A stretch of 64,000 bases of DNA from Ceratorhiza oryzae-sativae (lineage: Eukaryota; Basidiomycota; Agaricomycetes; Cantharellales; Ceratobasidiaceae): positions 372,001 to 436,000 of the forward strand of contig JARWMV010000008.1 of assembly GCA_030998015.1 (NCBI GenBank). The letters run 5' to 3'. Within the stretch, counting starts at the first letter, position 1; the number at the start of each line of letters is the position of its first letter. The notes under the pieces were generated by a model that was not told the origin of the DNA, searched no databases, and saw only the letters and a program-made list of their open reading frames with translations. A program made the translations under genes and the position numbers. This document shows positions 6,765 through 36,237 of this stretch, piece after piece.

Positions 6765-6768
6765 CTAT

Positions 6769-6787
6769 CCCCTAACTACCGGAGGGG
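6769..6787. other. stem-loop (5-bp stem, 9-nt loop), candidate Rep origin
   Basis: CCCCT and AGGGG form a perfect stem around the 9-nt loop AACTACCGG. In copy B (22039-22057) the stem is unchanged and the loop differs by one G to A change at a CpG. A second perfect hairpin, GGTCGG/CCGACC, overlaps at 6786-6807. CRESS DNA virus origins have a stem with a nonanucleotide loop nicked by Rep; the loop here is not the geminivirus nonanucleotide, so the assignment is a hypothesis. Confidence 0.4.
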
Positions 6788-7053
6788 TCGGAGAGGGGGC
6801 ACCGACCAAAGTGGGGGAGCGGAGGCCCCAAGCGTAGCGAGGATCAAGGCCAACGCGGAGGAACGGATGGGAGGGCACCCCTCGGAGATGCGTCATCACC
6901 GAAATAAGGTCATGTGATCACAACAAATGCAAGACAGAGTCATGTGACAATCAAAACGGACCTTGCAGCTTATATAGACAAGCACAAGGCCCGAGATAAC
7001 CCGCACTCTCATGCTCTCTTCCCAGTCCCCAAATACCTCTAAAACTGTAAACG

Positions 7054-8601: not shown

Positions 8602-9383
8602 TGTTATGACCTGTCAAACGGACATAACAAAACAACCAAATATTTCTACAGATTTATGGCATTTTTCCTAAGCGGAACAAGCCATAAACAAGGTCACATG
8701 ACCTCGGCGCTTAGCTGGCGCTTACAGTGGTTACCCTGAACTTGCTCCAGCATTTCTCTCCATTGTTACTTGGAGCGAGGAGCGAGTTGTCACGTGATCT
8801 CGGCGCTTACAGCAGGATCACGTGACCTCAGCGCCTACGGTGGTTACCCTGAACTCGCTCCAGCATTTCTCTCCCTTGTTACTTGGAGCGAGGAGCGAGT
8901 TGTCACGTGATCTCGGCGCTTATGGAAGGGTCACGTGATCTCGGCGCTTACAGTTGTTACCCTGAACTTGCTCCAGCATTTCTCTCCCATGTTACTTGGA
9001 GTGAGGAGCGAGTTGTCACGTGATCTCGGTGCTTACGGAAGGGTCATGTGACCTCAGCACCTACCCCTCGGACCTTGCACGGCTCTATAAGATTCGGAGC
9101 CGCACAAACTTAAGACAAACAATTACCTAACCCATAGTACTATACATAACCTACACCTACTGCGGAGTGTGCTTAGATAATACATCTGCAGCCACCGCAG
9201 CCACAGGTATATATAAGGAGGATAAAGCAAGACTGGACACCTCAGCTTGCTTTATCTTGTCAACCACCATAGACCATAGCAAACACTGTAACTAGAACAC
9301 TCAATACATACTGCATAGCACCAAACCGTCAACGCAGCCACTACTTAAGTGCTCCACAAGGGAGCCTCCAGAGGGTCACGACA
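8602..9383 (+). repeat. 3' LTR of copy A
   Basis: 782 bp, TGTTATGACC...GTCACGACA. U3 contains three tandem units of about 115 bp (roughly 8690-9060), each with a TCACGTGA-type core and the segments ttaccctgaac and tgttacttggag. A TATA box (gtatatataagg, from 9208) is followed by the inverted pair gataaagcaag (9221-9231)/cttgctttatc (9246-9256); transcription probably starts near 9244. Confidence 0.92.
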
Positions 9384-9635
9384 TTCAGGGTAACCACCAT
9401 AAGCGCTGAGGTCATGTGATCCTGCAGTAAGTGCCAAGATCATGTGACAACTCACTCCTCGCTCCAAGTAACAATGGAGAGAAATGCTGGAGCAAGTTCA
9501 GGGTAACCACCATAAGTGCTGGTTAAACACCAAGATCACATGACCTTGTTTATGGCTTGTTCCACTTAGGAAAAATGCCATAAATCTGTAAAAATATTTG
9601 GTTACTCTGTTATGTCCATTTGACAGGTCATAACA
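9384..9635 (-). repeat. inverted LTR fragment of the Rep element family
   Basis: U3 part of the same LTR family in opposite orientation, ending in the LTR terminus cataaca at 9635. It abuts the 3' LTR of copy A on its left and truncates the pol gene of the second gypsy element on its right, so LTRs of opposite orientation meet at 9383/9384. Confidence 0.85.
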
Positions 9636-12136: not shown

Positions 12137-13521
12137 TCTTTTACCAACTCATCATCAGTTGTTTCTACATCCTCTACAACCACCTTGTATCCTGACATCT
12201 TGGCTGAGGGACATTTGGCAGCAATATGGCTGTGCCCTCCACAATTGTAGCAGGTATTCATCCCCTTCCGTTTTCCTGCACTATCCAGGTCCATTGTGTC
12301 TGGGTCTTTTGCCTTGGAGGCTGCTGGAGGGTGGTTGTCCTTCTTTATGTCCTTAAAGGACTCTTGTACATTAGAGTTGCTACTGTCATAGCAAACAGTA
12401 GGAACTGTGAAGCCCTTTGCATTGGGCCTGATGGCCACAATTTGGCCCTTCACTGCTTTACTGTCCTTGATCTTGTATACCCACTCCCTGTTCTTGAACT
12501 TTTCCCTTGGGGGATTGCTTTGGGTGGTTGTTGGCTTACTGGATGAGGCATTATTGCTGCTAGACTTGTTGCCTCCATGGGATGTCCTTTTGCTACCAAA
12601 CAAGATAAGGTGATGGTCAATTTCTAGGGCCTGCTGGGTGAGCTGGGTGAAGGTCTTAGTGCAGGGATCATAGTTTTGGGCCACAATGCTGTCTGTTACA
12701 TCAGATGATAGGCCATTGTAGAACTGATCATGCATGGCTGCATCATTGTAATTGAGTCTGGTTGAGTATAGGTTGAACAGGGTGAGGTAGTCTTGGACTG
12801 TCTTGGATTGTTTCAATTTCCACCATTTATCACAGTTGTTTTCAGTGCAGTTCAAGTCCCCATAACAGGTGGTGAATTCCTGCCAAAACAGGTTGGCATT
12901 GTGAAGCCATGGGATTGTGGTCCCAGGGTTTAGGATTTCAAACTCTTCATACAAGTTAACCCATTCAGCAGCAGATCCTTCTAGGTAGGATGTGATAAAG
13001 GCGACCACCTGATCAGCAGAGTGCCCACTCATGTTTGTGTTGATATATTGAGCACATGCAATTCTAAAGGAGATAGCATCTTCATGCTTTGTGCCATCAA
13101 ACTTTTGGGGGGCAGCCATTTTAACCTTGGCAGTTGATCCACTAGTGGTAATTGCAGCTGTAGGTTGTGGCTGGGTCACGATGGAGGAAGGTTGTACTTG
13201 GGTGGCACCTGAGCCACCCAAGGAAGAGTTGATTTGCACCTCAATGCATGTGATAGTGGTTTGGAGTATTGCTAACATGCCAACTAGGTTGTTAATGTTG
13301 GTGGCCAGCCTGGCCACATTGGCATCTATCTTTGTTTGGTTTGTTGTGAGTTTTGCTTCGAGCAAGTCTGTGTAAGTTTTGTTATTATGTTTGACGTCTC
13401 CAATGTCATTTTGGAGGTTGTTGGTTTGTTCTTGTAGTTTGTCCATTGACTGAAGCATATAAATGACCTTTTCCCCATTGGACATGTTTGCCCAAGCAGG
13501 GGTAGGGGTTTGTGATGCCAT
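12133..13521 (-). CDS. gag of second gypsy element
   Basis: Intact 462-codon frame. Order: short Ser/Thr/Pro-rich start, a coiled-coil-like segment (about residues 20-90, many Gln, Asn and Leu), a central gag capsid region (about 130-300, with FNLYSTRLNY and a QFYNGL segment), a Ser/Asn/Lys-rich linker and a CCHC zinc knuckle CYNCGGHSHIAAKC near the C-terminus. This is the structural protein that packages element RNA. The stop overlaps the start of pol (ATGA), compatible with termination-reinitiation. It is the only full-length gag in the window. Confidence 0.88.
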   Translation of the reverse strand: MASQTPTPAWANMSNGEKVIYMLQSMDKLQEQTNNLQNDIGDVKHNNKTYTDLLEAKLTTNQTKIDANVARLATNINNLVGMLAILQTTITCIEVQINSSLGGSGATQVQPSSIVTQPQPTAAITTSGSTAKVKMAAPQKFDGTKHEDAISFRIACAQYINTNMSGHSADQVVAFITSYLEGSAAEWVNLYEEFEILNPGTTIPWLHNANLFWQEFTTCYGDLNCTENNCDKWWKLKQSKTVQDYLTLFNLYSTRLNYNDAAMHDQFYNGLSSDVTDSIVAQNYDPCTKTFTQLTQQALEIDHHLILFGSKRTSHGGNKSSSNNASSSKPTTTQSNPPREKFKNREWVYKIKDSKAVKGQIVAIRPNAKGFTVPTVCYDSSNSNVQESFKDIKKDNHPPAASKAKDPDTMDLDSAGKRKGMNTCYNCGGHSHIAAKCPSAKMSGYKVVVEDVETTDDELVKE

Positions 13522-18508: not shown

Positions 18509-19225
18509 TGTCATGACCTACTCAGCAGTCATAACAGAACTAGGGAGTCAATCTACTATAAGTAGCATTACCCCCCAAGACAAACAGGTGGTAAACAAGA
18601 TCATGTGACCTTGGTGCTTATCTCAGTGCTTACCAAGTTGCTCCTCTTGAATCTCTCCTTTGTAATGAGGAGTGAGGAGTGAGTTATCATGTGACCTGGG
18701 CACTTAGCTGAGTGCTTACTAAGTTGCTCCTCTTAAATCTCTCCTTTGTAATGTGGAGTGAGGAGTGAGTTATCACATGACCTTGGTGCTTACCTCAGTG
18801 CTTACCAAGTTGCTCCCCTTAAATCTCTCCTTCATAATGAGGAGCAAGGAGCAAGTTATCATGTGACCTCAGCACTTAAATCATGTGACCCTGGGACCTT
18901 GCACAGCTCTATAAGATTCAGAGCTGCAGAAACCCCAAGAGTGACTTACATAAGGGTTGTAGACAATCATGTGAGGTATCCACACTGTTTACTCATGACT
19001 GAACCACTCATGTGACCTGTAAACACTGCAGACTGCAGAAAGGTATGACTCACACCTTGTGGAGTATATAAGAAATAGGGAGCAAGGTGGAGGACCTCAG
19101 CTTGCTTTATCTTGTCCACCACAGGGACCTTGACCATATACTGTAGAATAGAGACACACAATAGATAGAAATAGACAACACAACCAACATATCCACTACT
19201 TAAGGAAGACCAAAGGATAGTAACA
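18509..19225 (+). repeat. LTR related to the Rep element LTR
   Basis: About 717 bp, TGTCATGACC...GTAACA. Carries three degenerate units of the same tandem repeat type (cttaccaagttgctcc, tgtaatgaggagtgaggagtgagttatca), a TATA box and the conserved cagcttgctttatcttg block. No target duplication (aagac on the left, ggggg on the right), so it may be the remnant of a longer, deleted element. Confidence 0.75.
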
Positions 19226-19651
19226 GGGGGGTCTCAACAAAGACCCTCTCTATTGCTGACCCCCCCTTTTAATACCTACAATAAATGGTGGGGGGTGTTG
19301 ATTATAGGCAATAACTGTGGACAAACCAGGATTATAGCAATAACAGAATTTGAAATTCCCCAAAATTAGTGCCAAAGTGCTTCCAGTGGGAAGAGGACAG
19401 GAGAAAGGACCACATTCAGCTCATGGCTTAACACTGTGCTATGGGGAGCATGGGCTGGGAGGTGGCCAGGTTTATTAAAACTGGATTTCACAAATTGCCT
19501 ATAATTGCCCATAATCTGTGAAATCCAGGTTTATAAATAACCCAGTTTTTTCTGATGAACTATGCAATAGTCTTAGCTATTAATTACATCACTACACAAC
19601 CAACACAAATGTGTATATTTAACAAATCCTATGAAAATGCACTGTGGATTG
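19226..19651. other. spacer with perfect 12-bp inverted repeat
   Basis: No gene. ctggatttcaca (19481-19492) and tgtgaaatccag (19517-19528) can form a hairpin. The last five bases, gattg (19647-19651), are the target duplication of copy B. Confidence 0.6.
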
Positions 19652-20197
19652 TGTTGTGACCCTCTGGATGCTTCCTTGCAAAGCACTTAAGTAGTGGCTG
19701 CATTGACAGTTTGGTCCTATGCAGTATGTATTGAGTGTTCTAGTTACAGTGTTTGTGATGGTCTATGGTGGTTGACAAGATAAAGCAAGCTGAGGCGTCC
19801 AGTCTTGCTTTATCCTTCTTATATATGCCTGTGGCTGTGGTGGCTGCAGATGTATTATCTAAGCACAATCTGCAGTAGGTGCAGGTTATATACAGTACTA
19901 TGGTTTAGGTAATTGTTTATCTTAAGTTTGTGCAGCTCCAAATCTTATAGAGCTGTGCAAGGTCCAAGGGGTAAGTGCTGAGGTCATGTGGTCCTGCTGT
20001 AAGCACCAAGATCACATGACAACTTGCTCCTCACTCCAAGTAACAGGGTAGAGAAATGCTGGAGCAAGTTCAGGGTAACCACTGTAAGCACCAAGATCAC
20101 GTGACCTTGTTTATGGCTCATTCCACTTGGGAAAAAATGCCATAAATCCATAAAAATATTTGGTTACTCTGTTATGTCTGTTTGACAGGTCATAACA
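19652..20197 (-). repeat. 3' LTR of copy B
   Basis: 546 bp. Same termini as the 5' LTR (TGTTGTGACC...CATAACA on the + strand) but only one 115-125-bp repeat unit in U3, against two in the 5' LTR and three in copy A. Confidence 0.93.
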
Positions 20198-20213
20198 TTA
20201 TCCCCCCCTTTGG
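20198..20213 (-). promoter_or_regulatory. polypurine tract of copy B
   Basis: On the - strand reads aaagggggggataa immediately before the 3' LTR; identical placement to copy A. Confidence 0.88.
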
Positions 20214-20262
20214 ACATGTCTTGGGGGACCTTGAGACATGGTTTAGATCCTTATGCAAAAGG

Positions 20263-20389
20263 AATCTCATGCACCTAGGAGGTTAAGGGTGCTGGACTTG
20301 AACCAACAACCTTTCAGCTGATTCAGTATCATTCAATGAGGTCAGGCTGAGTCAGGCTAGACCCCTTAACCTCTTTGTTACATGAGATT
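20263..20389 (-). ncRNA. tRNA-like hairpin of copy B
   Basis: Counterpart of 8410-8536. The outer arms (aatctcatg/catgagatt) are unchanged. The inner stem is conserved, and the T-arm reads GGTTCAAGTCC after one CpG to CpA change in the B box, which would weaken Pol III use. Confidence 0.6.
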
Positions 20390-20506
20390 GTTTTTCTTTT
20401 CTTTGTTGTGGAGGTTATTCAGGGGTGAGGAGTTGTCTGCTTCTTCTCAGAATGCCCCAACTGTTTGGATGGGCATAGCAGAAGTTGTACAATACAGTAA
20501 ATTATT

Positions 20507-21859
20507 CTAAGGGAATACAAAGAATGTTTTTCCTCCTGAGGACACCCATTCTACATTTCTTGATACCCATAAGTCCCCTTCCCCCTCTATGTCCAACCAA
20601 CACTTCATGATTGCCAACCAGCTATTTCCTAGAATAACTGTCAGTTGTACCTTCATTGATTTCACATGTGTGTACCTGCCTGTGAAGTCTGCCTTGTACT
20701 GGCTCAGGGCCTTGAGCAAGTACTTCCCATTTGACTGGACCATGTTGTCCAGGATCCAAATGTTGGCATCTTCCAACAAGTTGCCCACATTCCACACATT
20801 GCACATCCAGCTGTGGTAGCCCTTGGATTGTGCATATGCCATTTTCCCCGTTCCAGTTTCTCCTTCTATCACCAGGATGCAATGGTGCACCCCTCTTCCC
20901 CTCTTCTTGACCTCCTTGGCAAACCATCTGTCTGCTTGGTTGATGTGCTCCTGGTCTTCCAGGACCTCTAACTCCACAGGGATTGCAGGCATGCAACCCT
21001 GGTCTTCCTTGTATGTGTATTCAGCATATGCTTGTACCAAGTTCCATGTTGTCACCATTTGGAGGGGGCAGAGGCGCTTGAACACCTGGTAGTACTCCTG
21101 TTTTGTCACCTTGGTGACAATCTCTGTCCCATCCTCCAAGTCTGCCTCCATCCTTGACTGTTTTCCACCCTTTCCCTTCACCAAAATCTCCTCCAACCTT
21201 TCCAAGGTCAGGTCCCCCACCATCAAATCCTCTATCTCCTTGCCATTAGCTCCAATGTCCTTCCAGAGATAGTTGAAGGTGTCCCTTGCTGGGTTGCCTC
21301 CTGGCCTGTCCTTGAGGTCTTTGGGCCATATGTTGGGGTGTTGCCCCTTGAAGCCCCAGAACCCTGTGTTCTGGGTGTTCCACCTGCCCTTCCATTCCTG
21401 ACTGATGGAGAGGGTGTGGATGTGCAGGGGCTGGGTCGGGTTGTAGTTCAGCTCCTCTGGGTTGTGCTGTGCAACCACAGCTAAGGTTGCCCAGTGATTG
21501 GGCCAGTGGCAGCAGAACACCTTGTATTGGGCAGCAAGCCCACTTGAGGGCTGATTGCATAGCTTCGACCAGGTCAGCAGAACTGCCCTGGTCTGGACAT
21601 GGAATTGGGGGGCCAGTGCAGTTTTGGTCAGCTCTTTGGACCCACAATCTGTCAGCGTAAGCTGTGTAGAAGCAGGTGAGGGGGCTTGGCTTGATTCCAA
21701 GGGCACCAGCAATGGCAATGCTGACCTCCGCCCTGTGCTTGATTTGTTTGGCTGGGGTGTTCCCACATTCAAGCCATCTTCACTTAGCATTGTTGGTGTT
21801 TTTAGAGGTAGATGCGTCTTGTGGGGAGGGCATGAAATGATAGCCCCTTTTACCCCCAA
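20507..21859 (-). CDS. rep: Rep-like protein of copy B, open but with altered motifs
   Basis: Open for 450 codons; alignment with copy A suggests the true start is the second Met at about 21790 (428 codons). Motif I VLLTWSKL, the HUH pair HIH, FNYLWKD with Tyr and Lys, Walker A GETGTGK and motif C VILGN are all kept. Walker B reads ILDN instead of ILDD, and many Arg have become Trp, Cys, His or Gln, all explained by CpG decay, so the protein is probably inactive although unbroken. It has a 16-residue segment (nt about 20950-21000) missing in copy A. Function as for copy A: rolling-circle initiation by nicking and helicase action. Confidence 0.87.
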   Translation of the reverse strand: MGVKGAIISCPPHKTHLPLKTPTMLSEDGLNVGTPQPNKSSTGRRSALPLLVPLESSQAPSPASTQLTLTDCGSKELTKTALAPQFHVQTRAVLLTWSKLCNQPSSGLAAQYKVFCCHWPNHWATLAVVAQHNPEELNYNPTQPLHIHTLSISQEWKGRWNTQNTGFWGFKGQHPNIWPKDLKDRPGGNPARDTFNYLWKDIGANGKEIEDLMVGDLTLERLEEILVKGKGGKQSRMEADLEDGTEIVTKVTKQEYYQVFKRLCPLQMVTTWNLVQAYAEYTYKEDQGCMPAIPVELEVLEDQEHINQADRWFAKEVKKRGRGVHHCILVIEGETGTGKMAYAQSKGYHSWMCNVWNVGNLLEDANIWILDNMVQSNGKYLLKALSQYKADFTGRYTHVKSMKVQLTVILGNSWLAIMKCWLDIEGEGDLWVSRNVEWVSSGGKTFFVFP

Positions 21860-22252
21860 AGGCGTCCCCTAGATATACCCTCTCTGGTTGTTGTGATCAC
21901 GTGGCTTCCTGATGAAGGCTTGTGCTGGTTGTGATGCATCTCTGAGGGGTGCCCTTCCTGTGTTCCCCCCCGTTGGCCTTATTCCTTGCTACGCTCAGGG
22001 CCTCTGCCCCTCCACTTTGGTTGGTGCCCCCTCTCTGACCCCTCTGGTAGTTAGGGGATAGTGTATATTCATGTGACTAGGCTAGGTCATGTGATTCCCA
22101 TGCTTTGTTGTTTGTTTTCTGGCAGATGGTCACATGTCCATTGGTGTCACCTGACCAGACTTTGTTTTGATGTTTGTGCAAGTTATTGTGTTGCACCATG
22201 ATTTTTTAATGTTTGTGGTTTTGTTGTTTCCCTCCCTCATCCCATCTTTACT
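21860..22252. promoter_or_regulatory. ORF4-rep intergenic region of copy B
   Basis: Counterpart of 6511-7053. The CCCCT/AGGGG stem-loop is at 22039-22057 with a 9-nt loop; about one 61-bp unit remains (22070-22145). Confidence 0.6.
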
Positions 22253-22508
22253 ATGCACATTATTTCCCTTAACTACAATCCCCTTGACTGCACCTGCTGG
22301 TCTCTCCCTGAGGGGGAGTACTGTGCCTACTGTGATGCTGTGTGCAATGCCTCCCTTGAAGACTTCTATGGAGGTGTCGGGGATTGGTTCTTCTGTGGGG
22401 TGCCAGGTACGTGTGCCTGTTCTTTGTTGGTCTCACATTGCTAACTCACTCTGTAGAAGAGTGCATACTCCTTGATGGTCAGGCCCATGAGGCCACCCTT
22501 GAGTGTGT

Positions 22509-22749
22509 TGTAGAATATTCATGTACATACTCAAATGATCTAGAATGTGTATGAGTCAGTAATCAAGTCAAGTGTGAATGTGTCATGTATGCACAGTATA
22601 TGTGCAGCAGCAGAGCAAATGACTCATGTGAATACGTTGGGTATAAATAAGGACTCTACAAGCCCCCCATACTCCATCTCTTCACTTACACTCACACATT
22701 CTTTTGTAAACTGTTTCTATATAATAAATATATACATTTGATTTCTATA
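22509..22749 (+). repeat. copia 5' LTR
   Basis: TGTAGAATATTC...TTTCTATA, 241 bp, with TATA-like gtataaataagg near 22640. The sequence after it, ggttatgagccctgcc, is in the PBS position; I cannot assign its tRNA. Confidence 0.9.
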
Positions 22750-22827
22750 GGTTATGAGCCCTGCCCATACATTTTAAACCAGAAGAGACAAATATATATA
22801 CCTGAGTACTCAAAACAAATTAGCATA

Positions 22828-24242
22828 CCATGACTGATAGCATGCAAACAACCGTAGCTAGCAGTCTACACTGCATTGAGCCATTGCAGGGGATGGAGAA
22901 CTATAACGTTTGGCATGTGCAAATGGAGGACATACTCACTGACCTTGATTTGTACAGATACGTCGACTGATCTAAGTCACTACCACCCAAAACACTCAAA
23001 GTTACCCTTTCGGACAGGAAAGATGCTGCAGGGAAAGCCTTACTGGACAAGACAAAAACCATGGATAACAAAGAATATAATAAATGGTTAAAGTCAGACC
23101 AGAAAGCCTTATCAAATATAAGACTACAAGTAGACAGAAACATACTCACACACATACAGACATGTGAGTATTCCACTGACATGTGGGATCTCTTGGTGTC
23201 CACCTTCCAAGTCAAAGGCACAGTTGGACTAATTGATCTGCAAAGAAAATTCTTTAGTCATTGCATGGCCAAGACTGACAATATTGAGGAACACATACAG
23301 CACATGCGCAGCTGGTTCCAACAAATAAATCTAATTGCACCAAGGTCAATAACTGAAGTGGATTGGATAACAACTTTAGTAGCCAGCTTACCAGATTTGT
23401 GGGATATGTTCACTCAATCCATAAGCTTCTGATTTGAAACAGATGACGTGAACAAGCTAGCAGATCAAATAAGTGATCTATGCTCAAGGATATTAGCCAA
23501 GGCACACTGAAGAAGTAATCATAACAACAAACCAAAAGTGTTCTTCAGTACAAATAAGTTCCAACAGAATAGGCCTACACATACCAATACAAAACCTCTA
23601 GACAAGTCAAAGTTGAAGTGCAAGAATTGCAGAAAGATCGGGCACTGGGCAAACAAATGCCAAAGCCTGGGAGGAGGTGCATACAAGCGAAGTCAGCTCA
23701 ACAAAGCAAACAAAGGAAATTTCCATAACCAAAGATTTGACTCACCCAATAAGAGTCAAACTGGCAATGCACATACACATATAGCCATGTCAAACAACAG
23801 CAAGACCCCTGAGTACACCTTTTCAACCTATGAAGATCAACTGACATTAGTAAGTATTGACCATAATATGTGGCTAGCTGATAGCAGAACTACGACTCAC
23901 ATTGCTAGGGACCTAGAGGCATTTACTATGTATAGTAAATTGTCTGGTTACATCACTGGAGTCACTGGTAAAGAGCCAATTCTAGGCCGAGGCTCGGTTA
24001 GACTCAGATGTAAAATAGATCCAAACAAAGATCAATACAAGACTATTGTCCTGACAAATGTAGTGCATGTACCTGGATCACCTGCTAATCTAATCAGCTT
24101 ATCGCTGATCCCTGATAAGGGCATGCAGGTCTCATTGGACCACAACAAGCTAATCATAACAGACACAAATAATCATAAAGTAGCGATTGGGTCAAAACTT
24201 AATGATCACATACAGGGCAGTTTGTGGAAGATCGACACTTGA
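22828..24242 (+). pseudogene. copia gag and protease region
   Basis: ATG at 22828. UBN2-type gag core (YNVWHVQMEDIL, then WLKSDQKALSNI and TFQVKGT, nt 22900-23430), CCHC knuckle CKNCRKIGHWANKC (about nt 23620), then a protease-like segment WLADSRTTTHIARD where the active-site DSG has become DSR. Stops at 22968 and near 23430 and 23508 break the frame. Confidence 0.82.
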
Positions 24243-24290
24243 ACAATAAGCAACCCTGTAGACAGTAGAACAATAAAGAAGGTTGCACTC

Positions 24291-27200
24291 GTGAAACAAA
24301 CTGGCCAAACCTGGTATGATTGGCATAGGATTCTGGGTCACCTAAATGCGCAGACACTCAAGCGATTGAAAAGTACTAATGCTGTCAAGGGAATGGAAGT
24401 TGCCAATGATAAAATAGGCTTGAACTTGGAATGTGAAGCATGCATGCAATCAAAAGCGCATATAAAGCCCTTCCCAAAACGGTCACAAACAATCATGAAT
24501 GAGATAGGTGAACTCATAGTTACTGATGTGTGGGGACCAGCTTGCATCACATCCATCAGTAAATATAAATATTATGTATCATTCACAGATGTAGCTACAT
24601 GTTTTACAAAACTAGGTTTCCTGAGACACAAAGATGAGACTTTGAGAGAATACAAGGTGTTTGAAGCAACGTTAGAAACACAGAAATCCAAGAAAATAAA
24701 ACACATACAATTTGATAATGGAGGTGAGTTTGTAAATAAAGAATGGTTTGAGCATGCCGCTCTGAAAGGAACTATTTTGGAAACTACAGCCCCATATTCA
24801 GCTCAGCAAAATGGAATCGCTGAACAGCTAAACAGGGCACTTACCGAAAAAGTGCAAGCAATGATGCTTGAGTCAGGAGCACCAAAGTTCTTATGGAATG
24901 AAGCAATAGCATATGCATGCTATCTAAAGAACCAGGTGCCCACACAAGTACATGGAGCATTCTGGAAAACACTGTACAAGCTCTTTTGGGGTAAGAAACC
25001 AAACTTTAGCCAATTAAGGCTGTGGGGAACAAAATGTTACATACTTAATCAAGGAGAGAACATATCAAAATTAGACCCCAAAACTTTTACAGGTATATTT
25101 ATGGGAATATTGGATGTACAAGGTAAAAGTTGGAGATATTACAAGCATGGAGCTAATCTCATAATGCACTCACAGAACATCTTGTTTATGCAAGTATATG
25201 TGCAGCCTGCAGGTGTGCAAGATGATCCAGAATGGGTAGAAACAGTTGTTCCACCTGCTGAGGGGGAGTCAAGTCAGAATAGCAGTGCTGTGGAATGAAC
25301 TGTAGAACTTACTGGAACAGGGGGAGATACCAAGCTGAGCAGCGAGCAAAAGAATGACTCAGTAGATGCAGGAGAGCAGAAAGGTATAAAAGAGGAGACT
25401 AAGAGCATGAGGAAAGCATCCAACTCACAACTTTCATCTACTCTTATTCACTCTGTTGCCTCTAAACCACCCAACTGCTCTATTATGCTTAACACCCATT
25501 GCCCTGATACTTCTATATTGCTTAATTGAATTAATGCTGTCAACCAACACACTGGCATGCGAACCCATCGCAACAACCCCAATGCTCCAGCTATCACTTT
25601 GGAACAAGAGCGTGGAGGAGTCAAAATCAAGATTGACAACTCCACCACAACAGGTAAGCTCATGTATGAGGATAAAAATGAGGTATCTAACCTTGTATTA
25701 GGACTCACCAATACCACAGGTGATAGCTCAGGCAGCAAGTTTGACACCAACGACACATACAGCATTACTTCCAACATACCATCCCTTACTGACGCTCCCA
25801 CCATATCCTTGACCAGCAAGAGCCCAACCTCCAAAGCCATTGAACTACCTGTATACAATGAGCTTGATGGATTGGAGGAAGTGTTCTTCAAGCTCACCCT
25901 TGACAATCCCATTCCACCAAAAGCAGAACTGTCCATGGCAACTCCTGACGCCCCCAAAATGCATTGGTCCTTCCCCACTCAACATATACTGTCTGAAGAC
26001 AACCCAACCATTGAGCAAGCATTATCCAGACTGAATGCAACTGAATGGAAGTCAGCCATGGAAGCAGAAGTGGCCACCCTTGAGAAAATGGGAAGTTATG
26101 AACTTGTCAACCTCCCAGCCAATCGAAAAGCCATTGGAAACAAATGGGTACTAACCATTAAACATGACGAAAATGGTAAGCCTGTTTGTTATAAGGCTTG
26201 ATTAGTTGCGCAGGGATTTAGTCAGCAACCAGGAATCGACTTTGGACATACTTACACACTGGTTGTACAACTTGATTCTATTCATATCATTGCATCCTTG
26301 GCAAATCAATTCGATTGGGACTTGAGGCAGCTTGATGTAACTTCCACTTACCTACATGCAAACGTAAATGAAGAACTTTATATGTGTCAGATACTGTACT
26401 TCAAGGACAAAACAAATAAGGTACTTTGTCTTAAACATTCAATTTATGGACTGAAACAAGCAGGTCGAATGTGGAATCAGTTATTTGATAATAAACTGAA
26501 GTGACTCAGATACGTACCTTGCAAAACCGACATGTGTGTTTATTGATGTATAATCAACATTGAAGATGAACTCTTTGTTGCAATACTTGTGATTCACATT
26601 GACAACATTATGGTTGCAAGCTTGCACAACCATACCAACTTTGTTATTGAAGAACTAATGGAAGCCTTCAAAATGCACAACCTAGGTTCCATCTGACACT
26701 TCTTAGGTATAAGCTTTACTTGTGATCATGAGCAAGGCACTTTAACTTCAAGTCAAAAAGCATATATTGACTCTATAGTTGAATCTGCAGGTTTGCAGAA
26801 TGCCTACACCACTCACATGCCCATGACACCAAATATTCAACTCACTCGATTTGAAGGTACAAAACCCAATTTTAATTATGGAATGTACATTGGTAAGCTA
26901 CTATATGTGGCCCTTTGCACAAGGCCCAACATAGCTTACGTCGTTACATTCCTAGCCCAATTCACAACATGCTTTGGATCGGCACACATGACAGCTGTGA
27001 AGCACATGATCTGTTACCTAAAGGGCACTGCTTCACATGGGATAATGTACTGTCGATCCAATGAAGGATTTGGAGAGTTAGGATATTCAGACACTGACTG
27101 GGGGAGTAACTTACTTGAATGTAAGTCCATCTCTGGTAATATATTTTTACTTGGAGGTGTGGCTATTTCTTGGTCCACTAAGAAGCAAGCCACTGTCGCT

Positions 27201-27572
27201 TTATCAACAATGGAAGCTGAGTATATGGCACTTTCACATGCATGTACTCAGGCACTATGGCTGTGCCAGTTTCTCAAAGAGTTATACTATGAAGCTGATG
27301 CACCAACCCTAATACTTTCAGATAATCTTGCTGCACTTACGCTTTCAGTTGAGTCACAATATCATGGACACTCGAAACACATCAACATTTGCCATCACTT
27401 CATGCGCAATGTTATTGAGCAGTGCAAGGTATCTACTTTGTACATACCATCCAAAGAGAACCTTGCCAATGCACTAACTAAAGCATTGCTGGCTCCCCAA
27501 TGTAGTTATCTTACTAAGCCAATTATGGGGGAGCCATACACAATGATTACTGAAGTTGAAGAGGACAAGTAA
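24291..27572 (+). pseudogene. copia integrase, RT and RNase H
   Basis: 24291-25298 is open: pre-integrase zinc region (WHRILGHLN, CEACMQSKAH), then integrase core with the catalytic acids in IVTDVWGP, IQFDNGGEF and the SAQQNGIAEQLNR block. After a low-complexity linker with stops, RT pieces lie at 25557-26504 (NATEWKSAMEAE, QLDVTSTYLHANVNEELYM) and near 26600, where the YVDD box reads HIDN. RNase H (ISWSTKKQATVALSTMEAEYMAL) ends at 27572. Defective. Confidence 0.88.
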
Positions 27573-27722
27573 TCAACCCATATAATCAATATAATAGTTG
27601 AATTGAAATAATGGAATTGTTCTGAATGTTTGAAAGTCTGATATGGTCTTTGGAATTGGTTATATTCATGTAGTAAATTTCTAATCATTCCTGTAGTTTA
27701 CACTTGCTTGATTAAGGGGGAG

Positions 27723-27963
27723 TGTAGAATATTCATGTACATACTTGAATGATCTAGAATGCGTATGAGTCAGTAATCAAGTCAAGTGTGAATGTGTCAT
27801 GTATGTGCAGTATATGTGCAGCAGCAGAGCATATGACTCATGTGAATACATTGGGTATAAATAAGGACTCTACAAGCCACCCATACTCCATCTCTTCACT
27901 TACACTCACACATTCTTTTGTAAACTGTTTCTATATAATAAATATATACATTTGATTTCTATA
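27723..27963 (+). repeat. copia 3' LTR
   Basis: 241 bp, same termini as the 5' LTR. A purine-rich run (aagggggag) precedes it at about 27713-27721. Confidence 0.92.
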
Positions 27964-28324
27964 TGTGTCTGGGCACTTGTTGATCAGGACTACAAGTCCT
28001 TTGAGGAGTGGTCTCACCAGGCCACTCTTGCTGAATTCTTCAAGGAGGGCTCTGCCCCCTTGTTTGATGAGGCTTTGCCCTTTGCAGCATCTGGTTCTGG
28101 GTGTTTCCAGAACTACATGGCCAACTTCCCAGGGGGGGAGGCCCCTTGGCTGCAGCCCACTACCCAGTCAGTTGTTCAGACAAATAAGAAGGATAAAAAG
28201 GGCAAGAAGCCCTATACCTGGCCCCTCAAGGGCAAATGTAAATAGAGAGTAAAATGTATTAGGTTTGATATGTAAAAATAAAACTCTTATACATTTGAGA
28301 AAAAATCCATGGGAGGCAAAGTGG

Positions 28325-29179
28325 TCATATGGGGGCTGGTTCCAACAGTGGCACCTCCTCAAGAGCTTCAACAAGCTTGTTTTCCCACTGGTCCCAGTCT
28401 TGTTTGGCTTCCTCCACAGCTGGGTCCAGGGTGGGTTCCTTTATCACTGGCTTTGCTTCTTCCTCAGCCACAACCAGTGATTCTAGGCTTGATGTAAGGC
28501 TTGTCATATCTGTGTTGTAATTGGTGTTTTTGTTTGGGTGCACCTTCACCCAATTTCAGAAGTCACTCATGTTTGCCTGCTTTGTCCTGATAGCAGTAAA
28601 CATCTCATCAGTGGTAGTTGCTTCGAGCAGTCCCACATACAGTGTGGCCAGTGTTAACTTCCACTCTTCCAACAATGCCTTGGCCTGGCGCTCCACCTCC
28701 CAGTCCCCCCCATCTGCCATTTGGCCTGTGGCCCTCCTCTGTTGTCTTGCTGCCTTGGCCACCACATTGACTGTTGGTCCCACAATATTGTCAATGGCAT
28801 ACATCAGTGTTCTTAGCAAGGTGTTTCTTGTTGTTGGCTTCTGGCTTCCATGCCATATCAGGACCCCTAACCTGGGATCCAGGTACTTGTCATCGTCAAT
28901 CCAGTTCCTTTCATCCCTTCACTTCTTTGGGATGTACACTAGGTTAGCCCCTGGCAACAGTTGCTTGGCATACCTCTGGGCGTCTTCCACACTGGAGCAG
29001 TACATCCCTAGTTTAGGACAATTTTCCCTGCCAGGGTAGGGTGCTGGCTGCCTAGTGGTGGGTGGCTGCCAAAGTGGGGCCACCTGATTTTCAGCAAGTG
29101 GTATGTAATGGTTGGGATGTGTGACTGGGTGAGTGATGAAAGGCATGTTTTGGGGTTTTGCAGGTGTATTGTGGTGCAA
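28325..29179 (-). pseudogene. ORF3 of copy B
   Basis: Homologue of 4551-5886 without the solo LTR. Reads from 29179 leftward; frame broken by a stop at 28919 (KK-stop-RDERNWID), and by stops or frame changes near 28823 and 28553. The uninterrupted WKLTLATLYVGLLEA junction here shows what the solo LTR split in copy A. Confidence 0.72.
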
Positions 29180-29232
29180 GTGAGGTGGTAGAGTGGGCTC
29201 TGGCCTTTCTTAGGTATCCTGGATGGCTCTTT

Positions 29233-32200
29233 TTAAAGCTTTCCAGGTCCTTGTTTGGTTCTCTTTGGCCTGCCTTTTGAGTCACCTGAGTGCTGACTTG
29301 TCTTGACTGGCATTGGTGCATCTGGTAAGTGCCTTTGCAAGTCATTTAGAACCTCTTTCATGTCAGCAAACTTGCTGGCACATTCCATTGTGTCTTCTAT
29401 TGGGTCATAGCCCTTCCATCTGATTTGGTAAAACAGCTTGCCATTCTGCCATTCATAATTTGCAATGTGGTCCACCTCATACTCCTCCTCTCCTTCTTCT
29501 GTTATGATTGGTGGTGGTTTGGCCTGCCTTCTTTGGAAGTCTTTATCTTCTGTGAATGGCAAGAGAAGATTTACATGGAATACATTGTGTACACATATGG
29601 TTTTAGGTAGGTCCAGGCGATACACATGGGATGAGATCTTTTCTGTGATTTCAAAAGGGCCCCCTTTTTGGTTGTCCAATTTCTTGGAAGGTCTCTTGGA
29701 CAAGAGGTTTGTTAGGAGCAGCCAAACCTTGTCCCCTACCTTGAATTCCTTCCCTTTCTTTTCCATTTGTTGGTGTAATTCCATTGGGGCTCTTGCCTCA
29801 TCCCATACCCTTTCCATTTGATTATGCATGTTGTCTGCAGCAGGTGCCTTGGACAGTTCTTCTCCCCCTTGGACAACCCATCTTGGGTTTTTTCCATATA
29901 CTGTTTCAAATGGGGTTTGTCCTGTTGTAGCATTTACGTGGTTGTTATGGCAGAATTTGGCAATGGGTAACCATTTTACCCAATCATCTTGTCTATAATT
30001 GCAGAAGGTTCTTAAGAACCCTTCTACCCATTGATTTGTTCTTTCTGACAGTCCATCTGTTTCTGGATGGAAGGCAGTGGAGAATCTGGGCTTTGTCCCA
30101 ATTCCCTTGTATAGGGCCTTTAGGAATTGGCTGTTAAAGGTTGACCCTTGGTCTGAGACAGTGGTTTCTGGGGTCCTGTGATGTCTCCATACCTCCCTTA
30201 TGAATATTTCTGCCAGTTCTTCTGCATTGGTGCTCTCCAGACATGGTACAAAATGGGCCTGCCAGGAGAAGCAATCTACAACTGTCAAGATGCTGTCATA
30301 CCCCTTTGAGACAGGTAATTTGACAATGAAATCATATGCAACATCTGCCCATGGTTTCCATGGGATTGGTAAGGGCTTCAGGGGAGCACCTTGTTTGTGT
30401 CCTTTGCTTCTTTGACATGTTTCACAAGATTCCATGTATCAGTTTACTTGGACCTTCATTCCTGGCCAGTAGTAATCCCTTGATAGTAATTCTAGTGTTT
30501 GGGCTTGTCCCTGATGACCTGCCACAGGGGCATCATGGCACTCCTCAAGGAGGCTCAACCTCAAGTCCTTGTCATCTGGGATGTAGAGCCTATTGTCATA
30601 CCTTAATAGGCCCTCCTTCATTTTGTACCATCTAAATTCCTTCTGTACTGAGGGTGGTAGTTGTTCTTTATTTGCCACACTCAACCTTAAGGATCTGATA
30701 GATTTGTCTTCTTCCTGAGCTTCTTTAAGCTCCTCCCAGAAATTCCCCTGTACCTCTGCCTTGAAACCTATGAACCTTTCTTCTGGAATCATGATCTGTG
30801 GTTCCATAGGGGTGTCCCCATGGTCACTCCTCCTGGAAAGGGCATCTGGCTTCTGTGAGAGTTTCCCTGGTCTATACACAATCTGAAAATTGAAGGGTGC
30901 CAGAGTGAGATACCATCTGGCGTGCCTTCTATTCCACATCTGGGCATTTTGCCAGTACTGGAGGTTCCTATGGTTGGTGTATATCACAATAGGTTCTTCT
31001 GTCCCTTCTAGGTATAACCTCCAGTGCTCTAAGGACCTAATGATTGCAAGCAATTCCTTGTTGTAGGTGTCATAATTTTTCTCTGGTGGGGTGAAGCTCT
31101 TCAATAGGAAGGCAATTGGATGCAATTGGTTGTCATCACCCTTTTGGCTTAGTACTGCCCCCATGGCCACTCCTGAGGTGTCTGTTTCCAGTATGTATGG
31201 TTTGTTTGGGTTTGGGTGGATTAAGACTGGTTCTCTTGCTACTGCTTCTTTAATAGCTTCAAATGCTTCTTGTTGTTTTCTTTCCCACAGGAATTTGACA
31301 TCTTTTTGAGTGAGATCTGTGAGGGGTTTGGCTAAGTTGCTAAACTTCTCTATCTACCTCCTATAGAACCCCACAAAGCCTAGGAATGCTTGGACTTCTT
31401 TTACTGTGTTAGGTTCTGGCCATTCTAGTACTGCCTTTACCTTTTCCTTTTCCATCAATATCCCTTCTGGGGATATGACAATTCCAATGAAGCTTACCTC
31501 CTTCACAAAGAACTGACACTTGTGTGGTTTGAGGAAGAGGTGGTTTTCCCTCATTCTTCTTAACACTTCCCTGACATGTTGTACGTGTTCTTCCCTGTTT
31601 CTGGAAAACACTAGTACATTGTCCATGTAGATTACCACATAATCATCTATTATGTCATGGAACTTTTCCATCATGAACCTTGTAAAGGTTCTTGGTCCTT
31701 CTTTTACTCCAAATGGCATGACCAAGCATTCAAACTGGCCTTCTCCTGTCCTGAAAGCTGTTTTCCATTCATCTCCCTCTTTTACCCTGATATTGTTGAA
31801 CCCCCATTGAACATCCATTTTTGAATAGATGGTTGTGTCCTTCAGCCTCTCAATCAATTCTATTTGAATTGGAAGTGGAAACCTGTCTGGCTTGGTGATG
31901 TCATTCATCTTATGGTAGTCAACTACCAACCTAAGCCCTCCATCTGCTTTGTTCACATAGAAACAGGGTGCAGCTACAACTGACTGGCTGGGCATTATTT
32001 TTCCATTTCTTAGTTCCTCCTCTAGGTACTCCCTGAGTGCCTTTGTTTCTGCTGGCAACATACTGTACCTCTTTGCAGGCTTTGGCAGCTCCACTCCCTT
32101 GATCAGGTCCATTTTGAAGTCCAGGTTTCCTTGGTGGGGTGGAAGTTCTTGGAAGCCTTCTTCCCCAAACAAGTCTTCAAAATCCCTAAATTCTTCTGGG

Positions 32201-32646
32201 ATTTGTAGGCTTTCACTTGCTGCCCTTGCCTTGATTGTGTCTGGGTATGAGATGGTAAGGCCTTTCCAATCTATGATAGGTTCTGCTTCCTCAAGCCATT
32301 CTTTCCCTAGGACTATGTCTGTGTCACCTAGGGTCATCACATAAAGGGAGCATTTCAGAGTCTTTCCTTCCACTTCAATATTTAGTTCTGCCCTTTCTTC
32401 TATGGCATCCTTGATTTCATTTCCATCAATGGCCACAATTGATTTCTTGTGTTTGAGGGGAGTGGTCAGAATCCCCTTTTCCCTTGAATAGGCCTTATTG
32501 ATGAAGTTGGTTGAAGATCCTGAGTCAATCAGTGTCTTTGCTGGTTCCATGATTCCCTCTACTGTAGTGTATATTATTGATTGATTACTAGACTTCTTGA
32601 GGTAACATACATCTGCGGTAGGGGTTATATTGGGGTCCTCCAACAT
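29233..32646 (-). pseudogene. pol of copy B with chromodomain
   Basis: Same domain order as copy A. Open pieces: 32646-31354 (protease DSG, RT with YMDN in place of YMDD near 31620), 31351-30439 (RNase H, integrase zinc part) and 30435-29233 (integrase core with DCFSWQAHF, TVSDQGSTF and the LSERTNQW block, then chromodomain EVDHIANYEWQNG). Breaks: TAG at 31354 (former TGG) and TGA at 30436 (CGA in copy A). Otherwise the frame is intact, unlike the indel-ridden copy A, so the two copies together define the family. Confidence 0.93.
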
Positions 32647-32668
32647 GGAAGTGGTAGGACCAATTAGT

Positions 32669-34499
32669 TTTCTGACTCAGAGCTGCTTTCTTCTTCAACT
32701 TGTCTGCTGGCCTTCCCTTGTATCTTAGCTTTGTTGTAGGTCCACTGGCCTCAGCAGTCCTTCAGGACATGCCCTGATTTACTGCATTTGATACAGAGTC
32801 CTTCTTTCCTTCACCTGCCTTTTTCACTGTTTGGTATCCTTACCACGTTGTTAGTTTGGGTATTCCCCTGTTTGCTGCTGGTCCCTGAAGGCTTGTTCCC
32901 CCCTTGTTTGTATTTTGCTGGTGCCCAGGTTGAATTTGATGAGTTGCTGGTCCTTGCATTCATTTTCTGGTTCGCAAACTGCATGTTGTCCATTTTGCAG
33001 GCAAAGTCAATTAATTGATCTAAGGTATATGATGGACCTTCAGCCTCATTTGCCAGTACTTCAATCCTTAAGATCTCTTGTCATACTTCAGGTTTTAACC
33101 CTTCCCTGAATTGGTCCTTGAGGGCTTCCTGGTTCCAGTCTAACTCTTGGATCAGGATCTGGAATTGGGTAGCATAATCCAATGCACTCTTGGTTTGTGT
33201 TAATTTCCTTAGTTTCTGGGTGGTCTTTTCCTTTATGACTGGGTTGTTAAAAGCATCTAGGAATCCCTTCCTGAAATCCTTCCAGGATGCAAGGATACCT
33301 GTGCATTCGCCTGCTAGTAGTTTCTGGTGGTAAGGTTGTGCCCAGTTTGCTGCTTCCCTGTCCTCCATGTTCATTAACACAGCAGATATCTTTTTTTGGT
33401 TGTCAAAGGCTGATTCGTCATAGTCAGCAAAGAAAAGTTCCATGCCAATTATGAAGTTCTCTGCTTCCTTCCCTTTTTTCCCATTAAATTTGCTGGGTCT
33501 CCCTAGTTGCACCTCCTTAGGAGTGTGGTTTGTGGCAAGGGTAGGTTGGTTTGCTTGGGATGGAGGTTGTGTTCAGGGTCTGATTGTGGACTCAGCCTGG
33601 AAGGTTCTTCCCAGAAAGGGTGTTTGTACTGGGGAGGCTGAGGGGGATTGTGAGGGGCTTCCTATGACCACCCTAGTTCTTCCCCTGGTCTCTTCTGTCC
33701 TTTCCCTTGGCCTTCCTGCTTCAGTTGTTTTCTGGAGCTCATTTCCTAGATCAGTTACCTGTTGTTCTAGTGCAGTCAGGATCTCCCCTGTGTTTTCAGT
33801 TTTCTTCTCTAAGCTTTCAAGCTTTTGCTCTTGCATTCCCAGTACCTGGTTTATTTCCATGGAGATGTCCTTTAATTCTTTTATCAGGTTCCCCATTTCT
33901 GCTTTTAGGTCGTCCTGGTTCTTTGCCACATAGAGGACATTTTTGTTGGATGTTTCCATTGATCTTACCATCCAGTCCACGTTTCCTTCTTGCCAGGTTA
34001 GTGATATTTGACACTGATTTATACCTGTGATTGCCTTTTCTAGTTCCCTATGGTTATTGTCTCTAAGTTCCTTGAGCCCCACCCTGATGGCAGTGGCAAT
34101 GGTGTGAATAGGGTTGGCAGTGGTTATGGTTCCAGGACCTGGCTGGGGTTGTGTCCTTGCCTCTTCTGCCAAGGCTGTGCCTTGTTCATATATGGTTCAG
34201 GTCATATCTTCTACCTCATCCCTCTCTGGATTTGAGATATCTTCTGGGTCTGGATTTATCAGGTGAATTGGTGGTTGAGGGCTGTGGAGTGGTATTCCCC
34301 CTATTTGCCCTCCCAGGATGGGGGCCTGAGTGGGGTTAGGTTGAGCCACTGGTTGTGGGTTTTGTGGCAACCCCCCAGGCATTCCTTGGAGGGTCTTGTC
34401 TGGGTTACCTTCAGCCTCTGGGGGAGTAACAGGTTTGGGTGATTGTGGTCTACTATTTGCCACTCTGCTTTGAGATCGAGTTTGTGGTCTCTGTGACAT
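32669..34499 (-). pseudogene. gag of copy B
   Basis: Starts MSQRPQTRSQ at 34499. Pro-rich N-terminus, then a long coiled coil (nt about 34090-33720), an Arg/Thr-rich linker, the gag core and a knuckle in which the second half has decayed. TGA stops at 34197, near 33573 (copy A reads CGA there) and near 33081 (CGA in copy A) are typical CpG losses. About 600 codons in the ancestral state. Confidence 0.88.
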
Positions 34500-34605
34500 A
34501 GTTTGTTTGTGTTCTCTTATGTATCACAGGAGTTAGCTGGTTTCTCATGTACTCAGCCCTTAGTATCTGTGTAGTATACTTATGTTCACCACTAGTTAAG
34601 TTAAG

Positions 34606-34617
34606 AGCTTGCTTTAT
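34606..34617 (-). promoter_or_regulatory. candidate self-priming PBS of copy B
   Basis: On the - strand ATAAAGCAAGCT begins two bases after the 5' LTR. It is complementary over 12 nt to AGCTTGCTTTAT in the LTR, about 36 bp downstream of the TATA box and so near the presumed 5' end of the transcript. No tRNA 3' end (TGG start) is seen. Tf1/sushi chromoviruses prime this way. Confidence 0.6.
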
Positions 34618-34619
34618 AA

Positions 34620-35288
34620 TGTTGTGACCCTCTGGATGCTTCCTTGCAAAGCACTTAAGTAGTGGCTGTGTTGACAGTTTGGTCCTATGTGGTATGTATT
34701 GAGTGTTCTAGTTTCAGTGTTTGTGATGGTCTATGGTGGTTGACAAGATAAAGCAAGCTGAGGCATCCAGTCTTGCTTTATCCTTCTTATATATGCCTGT
34801 GGCTGTGGTGGCTGCAGATGTATTATCTAAGCACAATCTGCAGTAGGTGCAGGTTATATACAGTACTATGGTTTAGGTAATTGTTATCTTAAGTTTGTGC
34901 AGCTCCAAATCTTATAGAGCTGCATGAGGTCCAAGGGGTAAGTGCTGAGGTCACATGGTCCTGCTGTAAGCACCAAGATCACATGACAACTTGCTCCTTG
35001 CTCCAAGTAACAATGGAGAGAAATGCTGGAGCAAGTTCAGGGTAACCACTGTAAGTGCTGAGGTCATGTGACCCTGCTGTAAGCACCAAGATCATGTGAC
35101 AACTTGCTCCTTGCTCCAAGTAACAAGGTAGAGAAATGCTGGAGCAAGTTCAGGGTAACCACCATAAGCACTGGTTAAGCACCAAGATCATGTGACCTTG
35201 TTTATGGCTTGTTCTGCTTAGGAAAAAATGCCATAAATCTGTAAAAATATTCAGTTACTCTGTTATGTCCGTTTAATGGGTCATAACA
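34620..35288 (-). repeat. 5' LTR of copy B
   Basis: 669 bp with two tandem units in U3. Shares terminal sequences, TATA box and the gataaagcaag/cttgctttatc pair with the other LTRs. Outer flank gattg. Confidence 0.95.
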
Positions 35289-36237
35289 GATTGACTCTGC
35301 CCCTTGTTTGCCTTGGAGCTTGTTTGGTTACAACTCCAAGCACAGGTGGTAAGACATTCAGTGATTGGATGAGAGATAGAGCTTTTCATTATCCATCACC
35401 TTATTAAGTGGTGACACACAGTTGAAATAGGTAGTTTGTCAGTTATGTCTCTCCTGGGATGCCTGTTCTACAGCCTGCTCTCTGGGTAGCCTTGCATCAT
35501 GTTGTTTCTCAGCCAATCCCCAAATATTTAGCCAGCATGTGATAAGTCCCCACTGGCTAACAATGCTCCTGAGTGCTAACTAGGTACCAGTAGCCCCAGT
35601 AGCCCATGCCACTTTGGATCTAGCAACTGCTCAGAAGCATTGTTAGACAAAGGGAAATTGTGCATACTAGGTAGATTTCTGGGGTTTGGCTGAGTTTGCC
35701 TTTTTAGCTTATTGTCATGACCTGACACACATATATTCACCATATAATATTTTGCCAACTTATTACAAATTTTAAGAACATTTTTCAAAACACACTTTCC
35801 TTTTATGGGACAACTGTATCATGTGACTCATGGAATGTTCTAGACTACTTACCAAGATGTATTTCAACTTTGATGTAAAATTCTGCAGCTCTGCAGCAGC
35901 TTCTATCACTTAGTGATGTGACTTGTAGTATAGTTGTGTTTGTTTTGATGTGGCTTGAAGATTGTATATAATCCAGGTCAAGTTTGACAAGGCCCCCTCA
36001 TGAACTTGACCTCCTTGTCAATTACATGTCTTGTTCTTTCTTGCTCACTACCTTGTGACATGTTGCTATTGCCCTTACACTGATCATGACCATTGCCAAA
36101 GTCACCTACAGGCTCTGCCCTTGCAACCTAAGGCATCCACACCATTGCTTGACTTGTTGCTGCTGACACTTATCCTCTCACACCCTTTTCCCAATCTCTC
36201 TGGTGTTGAGACCCCTCCATCTCCTTGTCTCTGTTGA
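35289..36237. other. spacer with one family Z LTR
   Basis: No gene. 35713-36060 matches the LTR at 16176-16536 in opposite orientation (TGTCATGACC...TTGTGACA, about 348 bp, no clear target duplication). The rest, 35289-35712 and 36061-36237, holds nothing I recognise. Confidence 0.55.

Follow-up and report, generated by a model that had tools for sequence, protein, structure and literature searches.

The genome of Ceratorhiza oryzae-sativae harbors a family of Ty3/Gypsy long terminal repeat (LTR) retrotransposons of the chromovirus class that carry, between pol and the 3' LTR, a gene resembling the rep genes of CRESS (circular Rep-encoding single-stranded DNA) viruses. One member, element A, lies in a stretch of 64,000 nucleotides of contig JARWMV010000008.1 (positions 372,001 to 436,000, or C8:372001-436000; hereafter the window). 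The anatomy of these elements and the status of rep as their cargo can hardly be doubted. It is likely, furthermore, that these chromoviruses, which are probably self-primed, captured a Rep of the geminivirus/genomovirus type and have kept it as a working accessory gene.

Element A occupies positions 19652-35288 on the minus strand and is bordered by the 5-bp target-site duplication GATTG (19647-19651 and 35289-35293). On that strand, the 5' LTR (34620-35288; 669 bp, with 113-bp internal tandem units) is followed by gag (32898-34013), pol (29236-32646), ORF3 (open reading frame 3; 28328-29155), a nested Copia element, an antisense ORF4, rep, a polypurine tract (AAAGGGGGGGATAA, 20198-20211) and, directly after the tract, the 3' LTR (19652-20197; 546 bp). 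The gag gene was located by tblastn with the 376-aa gag of a less damaged relative, L043, itself matching Retrotrans_gag. The pol gene specifies protease, reverse transcriptase (RT), RNase H, integrase, SH3_Tf2-1 and a chromodomain; its frame is broken and its parts are split over several frames, and the Chromo match (23.4 bits) falls just below the 25.1-bit cut-off. From its first ATG, rep spans 20507-21790 and encodes 427 aa with the motifs HxH, HPNI, YxxK, Walker A, Walker B and motif C; the listed ORF (20507-21859, 450 open codons) includes 23 codons upstream of this ATG. In the element A protein, the Walker A threonine is changed to methionine and the second aspartate of Walker B to asparagine. 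Exon 1 of ORF4 lies on the plus strand (22253-22405), followed by an intron read by eye at about 22407-22456. The first-pass annotation had described LTRs, primer-binding site, gag-pol-chromodomain, ORF3, antisense ORF4, rep and polypurine tract between GATTG duplications, and all of these are present in that order. It overlooked the nested Copia element, which is about 5.5 kb long (22509-27966, plus strand, with its own LTRs at 22509-22752 and 27723-27966) and is not part of the rep family. This insertion sits between ORF3 and rep, within ORF4, whose exon 2 it cuts; the reading frames of its pol are broken.

The association of rep with the chromovirus is a property of the family. Short patterns run against the 48.8-Mb genome (35 bases in the case of rep; three mismatches or fewer allowed in each) identified 154 sites for rep, 139 for RNase H and 136 for the chromodomain; the reversed patterns matched nowhere. 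Linkage was evaluated among 100 listed sites of the 136-154. A listed rep site was found no more than 15 kb downstream on the same strand for 90 of the 100 listed chromodomain sites, at 2-4 kb in 80 of these, as compared with 2 on the wrong strand and 2 upstream; conversely, a listed chromodomain or pol lay upstream of 82 of the 100 listed rep sites. Scores from the genome searches cover the best 94 of 251 candidates in one rep list and 95 of 252 in the other, the best 98 of 1075 for pol and 40 of 672 for LTRs, and counts of elements "without rep" obtained from them are upper bounds. Among the best 94 of 251 rep protein matches, 61 had a listed pol upstream, most commonly at 4.0-4.2 kb (controls, 1 and 4). 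No listed rep accompanied 36 of the best 98 of 1075 pol matches, at least four of which gained one from the second rep list when the two were compared by eye. In ten copies read over 10 kb, rep was followed by an LTR in every case, at a distance of about 310 bp; ORF4 exon 1 was present in antisense orientation in nine, ORF3 in eight and the family pol upstream in seven, the absent parts being lost, replaced by other elements or beyond the stretch (in L034, ORF4 exon 1 is displaced).

LTRs with TG...CA ends and 5-bp duplications delimit both copies found in the window and 8 of 11 further copies with both ends read, the eight duplications being perfect and different from each other. (Ends were fetched for 15 copies; C236A, C10A, C4A and C76B had no LTR match in the 5' stretch and were excluded.) The second window copy, copy 1, is on the plus strand and had been placed at 1-9383 with the same gene order. 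The element starts 1.8 kb ahead of the window: its 5' LTR begins at C8:370194 (8194-9088 of locus L042). Within the window it comprises the remainder of gag (1-816), a frame-broken pol (1058-4460), ORF3 (4476-5883, with an insertion within it at about 5044-5553), antisense ORF4 exon 1 (6358-6510, minus strand), a frame-broken rep (7054-8289) and the 3' LTR (8602-9383). Copy 1 is inserted into another LTR of the same family, with TTCAG at both ends (9384-9388 and the 5 bp preceding L042:8194). Because the duplications differ (GATTG and TTCAG) and copy 1 lies inside another LTR, the two copies are separate insertions and not one duplication. The view of Rep as a stable cargo of the family, put forward in the first-pass annotation, is borne out by the similar copy numbers, the fixed position and strand, the different duplications and the purifying selection described below. 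Both situations that would have spoken against it, a majority of copies without rep and a single segmental duplication shared by the two window copies, are at odds with the 90 of 100 linked sites and with target duplications that differ between the window copies and among eight of the eleven others.

Sequence comparisons among copies divide rep into three lineages, A, B1 and B2. The ratio of nonsynonymous to synonymous divergence (omega) over the whole gene is 0.08-0.16 in six B1-B2 pairs, with bootstrap limits of 0.05-0.23. In the helicase half (codons 231-442), the same six pairs differ at 67.5-72 of 137-141 synonymous sites and at 12-26.5 of 494-499 nonsynonymous sites. Thus, rep is under strong purifying selection between the B1 and B2 lineages, and we are highly confident that Rep is selected for a function of the element. 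B-type genes are open from codon 15 in six of the eight copies read, L046 and copy 1 being broken. In twenty-five rep rows the only stop is one TAA; four of them (L044, L045, L047 and L049) were read and have no stop from codon 15 on, and this presumably holds for the other 21.

Some copies are mosaics. L043 (B1) and L044 (B2) are nearly identical in pol (synonymous divergence, dS, 0.03; windows 96.8-99.6% identical) and far less so in rep (dS 0.40; windows 84-94%). Between the rep genes of L043 and L047, codons 15-164 show no synonymous change at all; beyond about codon 165, each 30-codon block down to the last differs at 21-72% of its synonymous sites. Profiles of this type for L046, L047 and L048 place a sharp recombination breakpoint in B2 copies near codon 160-165, between the HUH nuclease and helicase halves. 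The foreign segment of B2 copies extends from inside rep to the start of U3: the 150 bases ahead of R are B1-like in all eleven 5' LTRs compared, and over its first 180 bases the 5' LTR is B2-like in both B2 copies read (C251 and C57; 94-96% versus 87-89%) and B1-like in three of four B1 copies. In all, the start of U3 in the 5' LTR agrees with the rep type in five of six typed copies. Reverse transcription copies the U3 of both LTRs from the 3' end of the RNA; therefore, the 3' half of rep is linked to passage through RNA. Near-identical pol genes joined to different rep-U3 ends are what template switching would give. ORF3 is mosaic as well: L043 and copy 1 are 96-100% identical in nearly all pol and rep blocks and 66-82% identical in the 3' half of ORF3 and just behind it.

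HxH, HPNI, YxxK, Walker A, Walker B and motif C, in this order, are the canonical series of CRESS Reps, and an HPNI before the catalytic tyrosine is typical of geminivirus and genomovirus Reps. The motifs of the family's Rep occur in the canonical order. All 38 copies read preserve the active-site HxH and YxxK as well as the Walker A lysine (the 38 come from 50 rep rows; L001, which is the window copy, and L031-L041, which repeat other loci, were left out). Searches identified 33 homologues of 49-70% identity, all named ones from Ceratobasidium; the HUH, YxxK, Walker A and motif C patterns are retained in all seven checked. Gemini_AL1_M, the profile of the geminivirus Rep central domain, matches 17 of 62 Rep relatives at E ≤ 1; the best match (P0013, E 0.001) covers profile positions 11-106 of 107 and ends at Walker A. 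The designation as a CRESS-virus-type Rep in the first-pass annotation therefore stands as far as motif order and nuclease residues go; the similarity to known Reps is below threshold. We consider a CRESS-type, geminivirus/genomovirus-like Rep quite probable, and go no further than this because the weak geminivirus match is only slightly better than weak matches to other Pfam models. With the Reps of Geminiviridae and Genomoviridae the protein would share the motif order and the weak Gemini_AL1_M match; it differs from them in its location inside a retrotransposon, in the lack of any capsid gene or nonanucleotide found with it and in an N-terminal low-complexity extension. Profile searches of the genome with Gemini_AL1_M gave three weak matches elsewhere and none at rep; two very weak ones off the rep family are at C242:160346-160474 and C68:68292-68420 (E 0.5 and 0.8). 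With Gemini_AL1, the genome search gave no match, the controls likewise remaining unmatched, which makes it uninformative. Searches against PHROGs returned weak rows at chance level, and those against plasmids two matches (E 3 and 10) taken as chance.

The class of the retrotransposon can be read from L043. Its gag matches Retrotrans_gag and Ty3_capsid, and its 1137-aa pol matches protease, RT, RNase H, H2C2, rve, SH3_Tf2-1 and Chromo, in chromovirus order. The rve match is slightly below cut-off and the Chromo match marginal (E 2.7e-05; 24.4 bits versus a cut-off of 25.1) but at the expected place, the integrase C-terminus. A sister chromovirus family has a pol 63-64% identical. Immediately after the 5' LTR is a 31-base sequence, TTATAAAGCAAGCT, that is identical in seven of seven copies read. 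In three LTR types, twelve nucleotides of it have their complement, AGCTTGCTTTAT, in the element's own LTR, where a TATA-like box lies upstream. In element A, the putative self-priming primer-binding site, ATAAAGCAAGCT, is at 34606-34617, and its complement, which would mark the start of R, is at 34748-34759, downstream of TATATAAG (both on the minus strand). Tf1/sushi-type chromoviruses are self-primed, chromodomain-bearing Ty3/Gypsy elements, and the rep family probably primes itself in the same way, from this putative site. It has in common with them the gag-pol layout, SH3_Tf2-1 with chromodomain, the 5-bp duplications and a stretch after the 5' LTR that is complementary to the LTR itself; unlike the rep family, they are not known to have ORF3, antisense spliced ORF4 or rep between pol and the 3' LTR. 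Twelve LTR pairs, aligned over 130-460 bases representing parts of the LTRs only, are 94.7-99.1% identical, 109 of the 118 differences being transitions.

Two further genes accompany rep. After removal of a 50-base GT...AG intron, the antisense ORF4 of copy 1 and of L044 encodes 163 aa; the spliced frame is not kept in L043. The intron can persist because it belongs to an antisense gene and is not spliced from the genomic RNA. The only homologue found for ORF3 is from Ceratobasidium sp. AG-Ba (44% identity over 253 columns). The same organism has a gene model, P0025, that starts as a Rep and whose tail resembles ORF4 (31% over an 85-aa stretch; E 3.6e-4 in a comparison with 75 proteins); therefore, parts of the same gene set occur in AG-Ba. 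A Pfam scan of ORF3 and ORF4 revealed no capsid-like match. An in-frame insert resembling a retained intron is found at LVAR/YEAF in four of nine Rep relatives read (P0036, P0051, P0057 and P0070) and is missing from the Reps of L043 and element A; judging from these protein sequences, the loss of a sense-strand rep intron would fit passage through RNA. An open frame overlaps the N-terminus of rep in another frame (L044:7374-7961; window 7011-7598), and the N-termini of AG-Ba gene models such as P0023 and P0029 correspond to this frame (42-45% identity). Conservation of this frame was rejected as proof of coding because the recombination breakpoint explains the synonymous silence there.

Copies of the palindrome TCAYRTGA are concentrated near rep and in the LTRs. 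Between ORF4 and rep there are six in L043, seven in L044 and two in element A (21860-22252), where 0.03-0.09 are expected, the figure for L043 being 0.04; the 3' untranslated region plus LTR contains five in L043 (expected, 0.04) and three in L044, and the 5' LTR of element A four. In the coding regions counted they are rare (0 or 1 each). The TCACGTGA-type palindromes, common to the LTR and the rep promoter region, may be repeats bound by Rep or else E-box sites for host factors. The 113-bp tandem units of U3 (8717-9064, 34938-35196 and other LTRs), whose number varies, carry TCAYRTGA palindromes. The sole nonanucleotide-like match, a low-complexity TATTATTAT in L043, was not taken as an origin.

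A number of observations weigh against the idea of a captured and maintained CRESS-type Rep. Omega is less extreme in A-B pairs (0.18-0.37) and within lineages (0.28-0.66), where recent decay counts for more, and 28 of 29 A-type copies contain a stop from codon 15 on. Of the 77 A-type stops, 64 are TGA where L043 reads CGA or CGG, so this decay is mainly of the CpG type. The Walker A threonine is changed in 10 of the 38 copies, the first aspartate of Walker B in 3 and the second in 16. Three copies (C20A, C206B and C233B) have no matching duplication, and C233 is also the copy in which U3 and rep types disagree. The best Gemini_AL1_M score, 19.5 bits, does not reach the 24 bits required by Pfam; more of the 62 relatives are matched by nSTAND3 (35) and AAA_22 (20), unrelated models reach E 0.005, and Gemini_AL1, the catalytic-domain profile, matches a single relative (E 0.23). 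Rep had no relative among PDB sequences or viral contigs, and neither structure prediction was confident (A2, 13 sequences, predicted local distance difference test [pLDDT] score 32.1; A3, 62 sequences with the N-terminus trimmed, pLDDT 38.7). A scan of L043, L044, copy 1 and the rep portion of element A revealed no CRESS nonanucleotide of the TAATATTAC type. The palindromes might be host E-box sites; they also occur 17 times in the rest of the window (expected, 3.9) and are therefore not unique to the rep family.

These points give substance to several other explanations. It is improbable, in our judgment, that the protein is some other P-loop protein with chance HUH-like motifs. Such a protein would account for the failed structure models, the better showing of general P-loop models and the absence of any Pfam match at cut-off in the Reps scanned (as far as scores were shown); it would not predict a nearly full-length Gemini_AL1_M match ending at Walker A, nor six motifs in canonical order with invariant nuclease residues. 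Rep might have been captured once in a progenitor and spread by a burst of transposition without doing anything. Decay in most A-type copies, the relaxed within-lineage omega and the grouping of copies into a few close sets, as bursts would give, are in line with this; we deem it very unlikely in view of the B1-B2 helicase half, where about half of the synonymous sites have changed and the protein hardly at all, and of the intact nuclease motifs in every copy and conserved patterns in all seven homologues. That the rep-ORF4 segment is a separate DNA transposon or an integrated CRESS virus nested in the retrotransposon, or that the copies are segmental duplications, appears extremely unlikely. 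The divergent arrangement of rep and ORF4 does recall ambisense viruses, and Tuber has an inverted-repeat transposon that carries Rep (PMC3198968); the fixed position of rep ahead of the LTR in ten of ten copies, the differing target duplications, and the lack of a capsid-like match (Pfam only) or a nonanucleotide in the copies scanned, both to be looked for in an integrated CRESS virus, argue against it.

There is also the question of what Rep is kept for. Geminivirus Reps repress their own promoters, and the palindromes common to U3 and the rep promoter region would suit a Rep retained to repress its own promoter and the LTR, or one directed at the host, driving it into S phase, rather than one replicating the element. 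Antisense accessory ORFs of plant LTR elements have likewise been proposed as regulators, as far as the consulted part of that report goes (PMC7264820). Such a role seems to us unlikely: the nuclease residues and the Walker A lysine are kept in all copies read, beyond what DNA binding alone needs, and the LxCxE retinoblastoma-binding motif is absent from L043 and the seven homologues. Under the reading we prefer, that of a working accessory gene, a Rep gene for an HUH nickase with an SF3-like helicase would have been captured by a chromovirus and kept between pol and the 3' LTR, beside ORF3 and ORF4. The whole unit, rep included, would be transcribed into RNA, reverse transcribed and inserted by integrase, as proposed because of the LTRs, the different 5-bp duplications and the mosaic U3/rep ends. 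Expression of Rep would probably be driven by a promoter region of its own, with TCACGTGA-type palindromes like those of U3. The most likely target of Rep would be the DNA of the element itself: it would nick and unwind the cDNA, whether linear or circular, and regulate the promoter of its own gene. In its boldest form, the proposal would have Rep amplify LTR circles by rolling-circle replication, which is a rather speculative step. More doubtful still is a dual-mode element in which, once reverse transcription is complete, Rep would bind the iterated TCACGTGA-type palindromes of the LTR and rep promoter region, nick circularized DNA and amplify it by rolling circle, the helicase half and the start of U3 being swapped as a module; were this true, each RNA would yield many integration substrates.

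The closest published parallel is the geminivirus-like transposable element of Tuber melanosporum, for which 42 Rep sequences have been reported (Liu et al. 2011, PMC3198968). As described in the part of that report consulted, it shares with the rep family a geminivirus-type Rep-like gene present at high copy in a fungal transposable element; it differs in having 37-bp terminal inverted repeats, two transposase ORFs, an interrupted Rep and no obvious target duplications, and that part mentions neither reverse transcriptase nor LTRs (PMC3198968). The rep family is bounded by LTRs with gag-pol, not by inverted repeats with a transposase. A search of titles and abstract beginnings in the open-licence PubMed Central literature, with narrow terms and outside subscription papers and preprints, returned no LTR retrotransposon with a Rep gene. 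This agrees with the initial statement that no family of this kind had been described, but an inverted-repeat transposon with Rep was published in 2011, as cited above. The family is a known class of retrotransposon with a maintained, selected Rep accessory gene that our limited search had not found before in that class. An orchid LTR retrotransposon is said to carry an N6-methyladenosine (m6A) demethylase as an additional ORF (PMC9289625). LTR retrotransposons of bdelloid rotifers contain additional ORFs (PMC5408684), and those of plant LTR elements are mostly located after pol, ahead of the 3' LTR, and many elements have them in all or most copies (PMC7264820). Captured or antisense accessory ORFs are thus common to these elements and the rep family; no rolling-circle Rep is reported among them in the portions of the sources consulted.

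Elsewhere in the window, the remains of a different chromovirus adjoin copy 1 (9602-13521, minus strand; pol 32-44% identical to that of the rep family), and an 86-bp tandem repeat at 18600-18878 is in part similar to the LTR repeats.

Retrotransposons copy themselves through RNA, and CRESS viruses copy circles with Rep. A selected Rep in more than 100 LTR elements would constitute a natural, testable meeting of these two unrelated DNA-copying systems. Considered alongside the Tuber transposon, it suggests more than one uptake of Rep genes by the mobile elements of fungi. The finding bears on the exchange of replication genes between transposons and viruses, on the role of extrachromosomal circles of LTR elements and on the fungal host range of CRESS replicons.

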